Assembly (NCBI RefSeq): GCF_018327705.1
Contig: NZ_BNEM01000002.1
Location: 124,001-188,000 of the forward strand
Length of the DNA: 64,000 nucleotides
Direction of reading: 5' to 3'
DNA from: Catellatospora sp. TT07R-123
Lineage (GTDB): Bacteria; Actinomycetota; Actinomycetes; Mycobacteriales; Micromonosporaceae
The notes beneath the pieces are model-generated. The model made no database searches, was not told where the DNA came from, and saw only the letters and a program-made list of their open reading frames with translations. The position numbers were made by a program, and so were the translations under genes. Below are positions 23,428-24,491 of the stretch, piece by piece. How positions within the stretch are numbered: position 1 is the stretch's first letter; the number at the start of each line of letters is the position of its first letter.

Positions 23428-23433
23428 TATCTT
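23428..23433 (+). promoter_or_regulatory. -10 element of the Pth2 unit
   Basis: TATCTT lies 7 nt before the ATG at 23441. A weak -35-like TGGCGG is at 23405-23410, with a 17-bp spacer. The same hexamer at the same distance drives the leaderless ArsR gene (6023-6028). This places the predicted transcript 5' end at or very near the ATG that is followed by the in-frame TAG. Confidence 0.6.
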
Positions 23434-23440
23434 TCGTGCC

Positions 23441-23788
23441 ATGCCGCACCGCTAGGTTTCCCGCCTCTACGTGGTCACCCGGTCCGACCTTCCCGTCGGC
23501 ACCCAGGCCTGCCAGGCGACCCATGCCGCGCTCGACTTCGCGCTGGCCCATCCTGACGTCGTCGCAGGTTGGCATCACTCCTCCAACGTGCTCGTGCTGC
23601 TCGCCGTGCCCGACGAACCGTCGCTGCACCGGCTGGCCGACCGTGTCGCCACCGGCGGCCTGCGCGCCGTCGCGTTCCGTGAACCCGATCTCGACGGCGG
23701 CCTGACCGCCGTCGCGCTGGAGCCGGCCGCCTGGCGGCACGTCTCCCACCTCCCACTCGCTCTGCGGACGCGAGAGGAGGTGAAATGA
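23441..23788 (+). CDS. Peptidyl-tRNA hydrolase 2 family protein with in-frame TAG at codon 5
   Basis: The domain reads RLYVVTRSDLPVGTQACQATHAALDFA and ends SHLPLALRTREEVK, the Pth2 fold that releases peptides from tRNA or acts on related aminoacyl-tRNAs. Directly before it, in the same frame, is ATG-CCG-CAC-CGC-TAG (23441-23455), then VSRLY. VSRLYVV is the first beta strand of the family, so the domain needs codons lying between the TAG and the first alternative start, GTG at 23471, which would cut that strand. Full-length protein (115 residues including the UAG residue) therefore seems to need UAG read-through; a tRNA with anticodon CTA lies downstream at 24186. The ATG is 7 nt from a good -10, so it is the expected leaderless start. 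The stop overlaps the next gene (ATGA). Confidence 0.8.
23453..23455 (+). other. In-frame amber codon (candidate read-through site)
   Basis: This is TAG codon 5 of the frame that opens at ATG 23441 and continues uninterrupted to the TGA at 23786-23788. If not read through, translation yields the tetrapeptide MPHR, and a ribosome could only restart at GTG 23471, 15 nt after the stop. Confidence 0.75.
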
Positions 23789-24093
23789 CAATGACCGAGA
23801 CCACGGGCAAGGACATCTACGCCCGCTACGCCGAGGCGGCCGACACGCGCGACGCGCTGCGCGCCCAGCTTGAGCGGGAGGGGCTCCCCCAGGTCACGCG
23901 ATGGCTGCAACGCAAGGTGTGGCGGCAGGCGCGTGCCCTGGACGCCCTCAACCGCCGCGTCACGACGCAGCGGTTCGTCCTGCGCACGCTGGACGGGCTC
24001 GGCCGGTCGCTGACGGCCGACGAGTTCCGGACCGCGAAGGCGGCGATCGCGAACGAGCAGCTGCGCGACCGGATCGACGACCCGGTCGGCTGA
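23785..24093 (+). CDS. Small protein of unknown function, coupled to the Pth2 gene
   Basis: A 102-residue soluble, charged, mostly helical protein: MTMTETTGKDIYARYAEAAD, then QVTRWLQRKVWRQARALDAL, a basic, tryptophan-containing helix that could touch RNA. I recognise no family. The start is well fixed: the ATG overlaps the TGA of the Pth2 gene (ATGA, 23785-23788) and GAGAGGAGG (23772-23780) precedes it. Translational coupling means its level follows that of Pth2, including any effect of the upstream UAG. It lies between Pth2 and the CTA-anticodon tRNA, so it may belong to the same function; that is inference. Confidence 0.82.
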   Translation: MTMTETTGKDIYARYAEAADTRDALRAQLEREGLPQVTRWLQRKVWRQARALDALNRRVTTQRFVLRTLDGLGRSLTADEFRTAKAAIANEQLRDRIDDPVG

Positions 24094-24153
24094 ACCGAGA
24101 TCATTTCGGTACGCTGACGATTCGACGGGGGTCAGCGTCCCGCAGCGGTCTGA

Positions 24154-24181
24154 GAGGACGGGCGGACGCCCGCCCGTCCTC
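24154..24181 (+). other. Stable hairpin directly before the tRNA gene
   Basis: A perfect 11-bp stem (GAGGACGGGCG at 24154-24164 with 24171-24181) and 6-nt loop end only 4 nt before the first base of the tRNA. It may terminate the upstream operon, or form the 5' leader that guides RNase P processing if the tRNA is co-transcribed. TACGCT at 24110-24115 could be a -10 for a separate tRNA transcript. Confidence 0.65.
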
Positions 24182-24185
24182 GTAC

Positions 24186-24260
24186 GCTCCAGCAGCTCAA
24201 CGGCAGAGCAGCCGCCTCTAAAGCGGACGGTAGCGGGTTCGACTCCCGCCTGGAGCACCA
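24186..24260 (+). tRNA. tRNA with anticodon CTA (amber-reading, suppressor-type)
   Basis: A full cloverleaf of 75 nt with encoded CCA. The acceptor stem is GCTCCAG/CTGGAGC (7 perfect pairs), the D arm GCTC/GAGC with loop AACGGCA, and the anticodon arm GCCGC/GCGGA with loop CTCTAAA. A 5-nt variable loop CGGTA and T arm GCGGG/CCCGC with loop TTCGACT follow; the discriminator is A73, then CCA. The anticodon at 24218-24220 is CTA, which reads UAG. Departures from canonical tRNA are C at position 8, A at position 48 and a G27-A43 mismatch. The loop differs from a CTT (lysine) loop CTCTTAA at one base, so charging by LysRS is conceivable; A73 also fits several other synthetases. Lengths are class I, not selenocysteine-type. 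Confidence 0.85.
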
Positions 24261-24491
24261 CCACCCGCCAACCCGACCGCGGTGGCACCAGCGCGGCTTC
24301 CGGCCGAAGATCGCTGCTTTCGGTCAAAGGGCGCCTTCCACGGCAAGAAAACGGCCGGAAACGGCGATCACCAACCGGACCAGCCGCGAAGAGGGGCGGC
24401 CTTGGCGGCTTTCGTGACGTTTTGGTGACAGTTGGGGGAGGTTTCGGCCTGGCGTGGGGGTCGGGCTGGTGGAGTGCGCCATGATGCGGCG
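24261..24491. promoter_or_regulatory. Non-coding stretch with direct repeats before the response regulator
   Basis: No gene is seen. GTGAC at 24414-24418 and again at 24425-24429 form direct repeats 11 bp apart, one helical turn, as expected for a dimeric OmpR-type regulator. CATGAT (24480-24485) lies 6 nt before the GTG start of the regulator gene. Autoregulation is likely. Confidence 0.55.

Follow-up and report, generated by a model that had tools for sequence, protein, structure and literature searches.

How can a protein be made from a gene in which the fifth codon is a stop? This question is raised by a unit in the window, a stretch of 64,000 nucleotides (nt) from Catellatospora sp. TT07R-123 (contig NZ_BNEM01000002.1, positions 124,001 to 188,000), in which a gene of the peptidyl-tRNA hydrolase family Pth2 (pth2) is interrupted close to its start by an in-frame UAG. 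It is followed by an overlapping gene for a protein of 102 amino acids, the partner, and by a tRNA gene with the anticodon CUA [tRNA(CUA)]. A preliminary description had placed these three parts on one strand within about 830 bp, and all of them were found there. It had also suggested that the tRNA may be needed to make Pth2, and that Pth2 could act on forms of this tRNA, which would give a feedback loop. We propose that the unit is an amber gate, in which competition between tRNA(CUA) and the release factor RF1 controls the synthesis of Pth2, and Pth2 offsets the costs of amber suppression. A probability of roughly two in three is assigned to this proposal. That the early UAG is read through by the unit's own tRNA is considered quite likely; that the purpose of the unit is a clean-up with feedback could go either way.

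The pth2 gene and the tRNA(CUA) of the window

The gene (23441-23788, forward strand) starts with the ATG at 23441, and its frame is open past the UAG to the TGA at 23786-23788. Four codons, M-P-H-R (23441-23452, forward strand), lead to the amber codon at 23453-23455 on the same strand, which is codon 5 and is followed by a G. The Pth2 domain lies downstream of the UAG, with its strand 1 beginning at 23462, and between the UAG and this strand there is no ATG, GTG or TTG. Position 23428, the first base of the interval in the preliminary description, is not the start of the gene. At this base begins TATCTT, which may be a -10 box and which together with a spacer of 7 nt to the ATG occupies 23428-23440 of the forward strand. 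This arrangement, TANNNT at 6-7 nt before the start codon, was present in 13 of 13 copies (nine from Micromonosporaceae and four from mycobacteriophages), none of which had a second TANNNT within 50 nt upstream; in the mycobacteriophage copies a TTGACA was found further upstream of the TANNNT. A -10 box 6-7 nt before the start is located where it is expected for leaderless transcripts in these bacteria. Because the spacing is fixed in the 13 copies, the pth2 transcript may start at the AUG and look leaderless, so that the message would begin with AUG-(codons)-UAG.

The part of the protein after the UAG matched the Pfam family PTH2 (PF01981; E 1.4e-6, 28.9 bits against a cut-off of 23), and it scored below the NCBIfam equivalog cut-offs (22.9 of 126 and 21 of 82). 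The AlphaFold2 model of Pth2 had a mean predicted local distance difference test (pLDDT) score of 94.6. Its top match in Foldseek was the Methanocaldococcus jannaschii enzyme 2zv3 (E 3e-7, TM 0.79, identity about 27%), and the first 14 matches were chains of 2zv3, 1q7s (bit1), 3erj, 1wn2, 1xty, 1rlk and 1rzw. With 2zv3 the protein shares the fold, and three residues align between the two: the late Thr as well as the Gln and the His in helix 1. It differs from 2zv3 in that the Lys of the GKGK stretch is missing and in the proposed gating by UAG; Glu74 aligns where the archaeal enzymes have Asp. Membership in the Pth2 family is indicated by the Pfam score and by the fold, and not by the catalytic Lys and Asp of the archaeal enzymes. 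Judged from the model, the protein appears to be a Pth2 family member by fold and is a predicted hydrolase. It would be an extra enzyme, since the host already has Pth1; RF1 is also present in the host genome.

The tRNA(CUA) gene is located on the forward strand at 24186-24260 according to ARAGORN and at 24186-24257 according to Rfam (RF00005, 59 bits). Its minimum-energy fold is a cloverleaf, position 73 is an A and the CCA is present in the DNA; among the tRNA(CUA) of the related units described below, position 73 is A or G. Given its anticodon, the tRNA should read UAG. The label 'tRNA-Pyl' that it received from ARAGORN reflects the anticodon CUA only. In two further tRNA-like genes of the window genome (L156, L158) the anticodon loops were unusual and were read as 'tc' and 'gcaa'.

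Conservation of the unit in Micromonosporaceae and in phages

The preliminary description had named co-occurrence in other genomes as a check. In a profile search pth2 was found in 9 of 354 genomes of the family Micromonosporaceae, and in all nine the gene begins with M-P-x-x-UAG, the UAG being codon 5, and is accompanied by the partner and by tRNA(CUA). The nine leaders are MPHR, MPNR, MPHF (twice), MPFR (twice), MPHP (twice) and MPFE, i.e. M-P-[HFN]-x. The tRNA starts 602-746 nt past the ATG in the eight units that were measured, and the CUA tRNA is the sole tRNA found at the family loci. The exact tRNA pattern was likewise present in 9 of the 354 genomes; these include a tenth genome, G729, and lack G749, in which the CUA tRNA differs. 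In G729 the leader (MPHY) with its UAG, the partner and the tRNA are kept and most of pth2 is deleted. The short remnant of pth2 continues without a change of frame into the partner (G729:C2:173500-177500). With the G729 leader and UAG thus in frame with the partner, the latter may itself be under the control of the gate.

The partner gene (23785-24093, forward strand) overlaps with its ATG at 23785 the TGA of pth2 (ATGA). Its product was modelled as a helical protein with low confidence (pLDDT 70.1) and gave no Pfam match above the cut-off. Across the 354 family genomes ten strong matches (E 8e-22 or better) and two more near 1e-3 were obtained. The partner was found only in actinobacterial chromosomes; it was not seen beside the phage pth2 genes that were read, and phages were not searched for it.

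The sampling of bacteria outside the family has to be read with its methods. An order-wide search with the single Pth2 protein detected the window genome alone, 1 of 298. The four-sequence profile found eight more family genomes than the single-protein search, and the order-wide result therefore understates the spread. In the class, PF01981 matched 77 of 394 genomes, with a stop inside the match in two (TGA in G014 and TAG in G563); this search is no test for an early UAG upstream of the match, and its loci were not used as controls. In 30 of these loci ARAGORN detected a single tRNA, for Pro, and none with the anticodon CUA. A tblastn search of Pth2 against 72,556 plasmid records gave no match.

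The unit lies in an inserted islet of approximately 23431-24410, flanked by a glgX-like gene on one side and a response-regulator-like gene on the other (both named by eye). In the nearest genome, G741 of the same genus, the protein of the neighbouring glgX-like gene is 96% identical to that of the window, and about 207 nt separate the same two genes, as opposed to about 1.1 kb in the window. The homology between the two ends near 23431 and restarts near 24410. The ten other genomes of the genus lack pth2 and the partner, and none of them contains the tRNA pattern. As judged from this alignment, the unit of roughly 1 kb is a mobile insertion, for which the nearest same-genus genome represents the empty site. 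A unit that moves alone, is patchy (9 of 354 genomes) and is common to chromosomes and phages would also suit an addiction or defence element, in which the suppressor tRNA or a minigene that traps tRNAs as peptidyl-tRNA is the poison and Pth2, produced only on successful suppression, the remedy; phages would use it to manipulate host termination and chromosomes to resist phages. PHROGs, however, assigned Pth2 only to families of unknown function and to 'hydrolase' families, and such a role would be a purpose on top of the same gate, not a different mechanism. We regard it as improbable.

It should also be considered that the UAG is a mark of decay or a sequencing error. An in-frame stop usually means decay, pth2 is deleted for the most part in G729, and G730 has a second, truncated pth2 without the UAG and with no tRNA beside it. 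Against this, the early UAG recurs in distant lineages, the fold is intact and the ratios of non-synonymous to synonymous change (pN/pS) of pth2 are below 1 (0.34-0.72 over 36 pairs). A pseudogene or sequencing error is refuted by this conservation, and the chance left to it is negligible.

Among 50,697 phage records 228 were matched by Pth2 in tblastn, of which 193 were from Mycobacterium phages. Twenty-one phage records were examined, including four from Mycobacterium phages, and an early in-frame UAG was present in pth2 in 17 of the 21. The gene starts with M-UAG-V in the Bixzunavirus phages Cane17 and Alice and with GTG-UAG-GTG in the Myrnavirus phages Myrna and ScoobyDoobyDoo. The other starts are MAQ-UAG in Cronobacter phage GAP32, MTH-UAG in Erwinia phage SNUABM_19, MT-UAG in Acinetobacter phage ME3, ML-UAG in Salmonella phage Arash, and MK-UAG in Tenacibaculum phage pT24, Xanthomonas phage XacN1 and Stenotrophomonas phage RAS14. 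The early UAG was also present in the uncultured phages LR756500, LR756501, LR745206, LR756511, LR756504 and LR756502. Klebsiella phage RaK2, Erwinia phage Hallingskeid, Prevotella phage Lak-B4 and LR745208 have a pth2 without it. A first scan of IMG/VR gave two loci, one with and one without the early UAG; the profile scans of IMG/VR together gave 53 loci, some of them duplicates of earlier ones, 30 with the early UAG and 23 without, the latter mostly from one sister group.

In the tRNA-bearing stretches of those early-UAG phages that have no tRNA(CUA) near pth2, one tRNA(CUA) was found in each of SNUABM_19, LR756511 and RAS14, and two in the terminal repeat of XacN1 that was examined. RaK2 and Hallingskeid, which do not have the early UAG, showed no tRNA(CUA) among the seven and six tRNAs that could be resolved from eight matches each. 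For XacN1 two CUA suppressor tRNAs have been reported, together with 18 amber stops read through in silico, and no target for these tRNAs was identified in that study (PMC5852040). ORF364 of XacN1, annotated as hypothetical, is a fusion of a phrog_14850 domain and Pth2, and its frame extends upstream of the annotated start to MK-UAG-TIKA, which resembles the starts of RAS14 (MK-UAG-TLNK) and of locus L088 (MSFT-UAG-TINA). The Pth named in PMC5852040 is a different gene, ORF295. In several phages the publicly annotated pth2 is too short or absent, since the UAG was treated as a stop: an inner ATG was chosen in GAP32 and Arash, and in SNUABM_19 there is no gene under most of the match (L042, L043, L172).

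Some further features of the phage loci were observed. Fusions of Pth2 with phrog_14850 occur in both orders, Pth2 being first in pT24 (L044 2956-3897) and last in XacN1 (L169 2467-3303). In LR756500 the frame next to pth2 downstream, a very short one, likewise starts with ATG-AAA-TAG-ATT (L034 5334-5381). Two related phages, L037 (3094) and L058, share a second in-frame UAG, which in both interrupts the Pth2 domain after ...FAQEFP. Four loci without the early UAG (L033 5303, L036 5402, L045 2344, L079 1355) carry a UUA (ochre) tRNA, and no early UAA gate was seen in them. In a sister clade of phages without the early UAG (L056, L059, L060, L064, L066, L067, L075, L077), ARAGORN reported the anticodons 'tc' and 'ttca', and its relatives L065, L071, L072 and L074 carry a CUA tRNA. 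Quadruplet decoding was considered for this clade, in which pth2 starts with MATIKMGD or the like, and was rejected, as the anticodons assigned by hand are probably UCA in mispaired loops or loops of 8 nt; an in-frame UGA at the start of pth2 was looked for in the clade and none was seen.

Read-through or re-initiation at the early UAG

For the counts over all loci, four loci were dropped first (L073 at a contig end; L100, L057 and L089 as duplicates), and the 82 loci were grouped into 52 clusters at 80% identity; the rows of L160, L085 and L088 were set by hand. A cluster was scored for the early UAG or for tRNA(CUA) if any member had that feature, and tRNA(CUA) was scored mostly within the locus, for ten over the record (records partly resolved). 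The early UAG was present in 37 of the 52 clusters, which is not a population frequency, as the loci were gathered by similarity to early-UAG proteins. A tRNA(CUA) accompanied 33 of these 37 clusters and 6 of the 15 without the early UAG (Fisher p 5.6e-4). By locus, 43 with the early UAG had the tRNA and 12 had not; without the early UAG these numbers were 8 and 19. The co-occurrence, which holds in the family as well as in the clusters, gives strong support to the suggestion that Pth2 synthesis may depend on the tRNA.

The position of the UAG is confined to the very beginning of the gene. Counting the start codon, it is preceded by one sense codon in 4 loci, two in 24, three in 14, four in 10, five in 2 and eight in 1. 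An early TAG after [A/G]TG within eight codons was found in 47 of 70 pth2 frames and in 50 of 1,110 other frames (Fisher p 2e-39, not corrected for relatedness); the background consisted of frames of at least 90 codons on both strands of the phage loci, spurious ones included. The base that follows the early UAG in the 55 loci is A in 34, G in 19, C in 2 and T in none, i.e. a purine in 53 of 55. The TAGs at the ends of other frames of these loci (90 codons or longer) are followed by A in 41 cases, by G in 38, by C in 33 and by T in 30. A purine after UAG favours suppression. A U at the +4 position was reported to reduce read-through (PMC5289835).

The alternative is that the leader is a minigene of the type of lambda bar and that Pth2 is made by re-initiation just past the UAG, at GTG, AUU or another weak start. 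The tRNA would then be unneeded, and its nearness would reflect the clustering of tRNA genes. The commonest leader, with one sense codon after the AUG (24 of 55), is as in lambda bar, the commonest codon after the UAG is AUU (17 of 55), and many phage pth2 loci are rich in tRNAs. Re-initiation is most plausible in the four mycobacteriophages that were read, where the UAG is directly followed by GTG. Against it, 45 of the 55 early-UAG loci have no ATG, GTG or TTG between the UAG and strand 1. Moreover, re-initiation would be indifferent to the identity of the stop, yet where no such start separates strand 1 from the last in-frame stop, this stop is TAG in 45 of 46 loci and TGA in one (L076). 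TAA does not occur, despite several A+T-rich phages. Clustering is also disfavoured by the family loci, with their solitary CUA tRNA, and by LR756500, in which one other tRNA was found within 10 kb of pth2. Re-initiation is considered unlikely, although less so than the addiction or defence element.

Several observations weigh against read-through by tRNA(CUA) and against the gate built on it. The GTG after the UAG in the four mycobacteriophages could be a start and was the one chosen by the annotators, and altogether 10 of the 55 early-UAG loci have an ATG, GTG or TTG after the UAG. In six clusters a tRNA(CUA) is present and the early UAG is absent. Conversely, no tRNA(CUA) was found in the early-UAG phages LR745206 and LR756502, a provisional result as ARAGORN resolved part of the matches, or in the stretch covered of the early-UAG locus L050. 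LR756504 (MT-UAG) gave one candidate only, a tRNA (L207 446) whose anticodon loop has 8 nt and was read as 'tcta'; this result is also provisional. In a comparison of the window tRNA with 49 regions of the 58 other host tRNA matches, none agreed with it at more than 53 of 73 positions (Lys-CUU), and no amino acid could be assigned from it. Finally, the Lys of the archaeal GKGK stretch, which with the Asp is catalytic in archaeal Pth2, is without a conserved counterpart in these proteins.

Reading of the UAG could also be general, as with pyrrolysine or in genetic code 15, pth2 then being one user of many. This would agree with the presence of tRNA(CUA) and with the second in-frame UAG in pth2 of L037 and L058. 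When TAG was read as sense in 37 stretches, frames became 25-47% longer in the G+C-rich loci (the window, L035, L038, L039, L041, L087, L169); there the test is weak and some of the long frames are spurious. Where G+C was below 40%, however, the mean frame length increased by 14% or less, and in all 37 stretches the density of TAG in the TAG-sense frames was 0-2.7 per kb. The best match to PylS in the window genome, which has RF1, was 20.7 bits against a cut-off of 178.15, so that no pyrrolysine system was recognised there. In the A+T-rich loci UAG does not serve as a general sense codon, which can be said less firmly of the G+C-rich ones, and the wide use inside genes that marks genetic code 15 was not found. 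A general reassignment is considered very improbable. What these loci do have is the signature of read-through, a conserved in-frame stop followed by a conserved continued frame.

The proposed amber gate and related systems

In the gate that we propose, a ribosome would start at the AUG, read one to eight codons (M-P-H-R in the window) and reach the UAG. If RF1 wins, only a tiny peptide would be released and Pth2 would be off. If tRNA(CUA), which we infer to be charged and able to read the early UAG, wins, the frame would be read through and Pth2 made; in the actinobacterial units read-through would perhaps also yield the overlapping partner. Without a working tRNA(CUA) the enzyme can probably not be made, and its output would be proportional to the efficiency of UAG suppression. 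The early position of the UAG would cause little waste, as the decision would be taken while the peptide is short.

The substrates of Pth2 are likely to be peptidyl-tRNAs from drop-off and from ribosomes that overrun normal UAG stops, and they may include peptidyl-tRNA(CUA) itself. After nonsense suppression a ribosome may find no further stop in its frame, and peptidyl-tRNA, on which Pth acts, arises from minigenes such as lambda bar (AUG-AUA-UAA; PMC8012679). In the early phase of translation drop-off of short peptidyl-tRNAs is frequent, and Pth recycles them (PMC10192219). In this way a single transferable module would combine a costly suppressor tRNA with the remedy for it.

The gate resembles and differs from several known systems. 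The gene for release factor 2, prfB, is autoregulated: its early in-frame UGA is passed by +1 frameshifting, and what is sensed is the product of the gene itself. In both cases an early in-frame stop ties expression to the efficiency of termination at that codon; here the codon is UAG, it is proposed to be read in frame by a tRNA that is encoded nearby, and the product is a predicted peptidyl-tRNA hydrolase. With pyrrolysine and other UAG-decoding systems the unit shares a tRNA(CUA) and an in-frame UAG in the target gene, whereas it has no synthetase, the window genome has no PylS over the cut-off, and the UAG is at the start of one gene and not in an active site. Like lambda bar, a known source of peptidyl-tRNA (PMC8012679), it has an AUG, one or a few codons and a stop, but here such a minigene opens a gene whose product belongs to an enzyme family that clears peptidyl-tRNA, and the stop is UAG. 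Phage-encoded tRNA(CUA) is also known from XacN1 (PMC5852040) and from the crAss-like phages, in which stop codons are reassigned (code 15), whereas in the A+T-rich loci studied here UAG is not a general sense codon and one target recurs. A phage Pth is touched on in the papers on the CBB and SNUABM phages, and the paper on Atu_ph07 describes two putative genes for Pth besides a UCA suppressor tRNA. No description of a stop-codon-gated pth2, or of a suppressor tRNA paired with pth2, was recognised in the open-access literature.

It is an even question whether this is a transferable self-gating module, present in unrelated phages and in actinobacterial chromosomes, in which an amber tRNA turns on a damage-offsetting Pth2 with feedback on termination failure, and whether it accounts for many of the orphan amber tRNAs of phages. 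Many of the phage suppressor tRNAs without a known target, for which XacN1 is an explicit case (PMC5852040), would gain a specific and testable one. If it works, the unit would be a natural and compact amber-decoding switch, consisting of leader, UAG, target and tRNA, in a host that is not recoded. Termination, ribosome rescue and phage biology would then be joined in one testable circuit.

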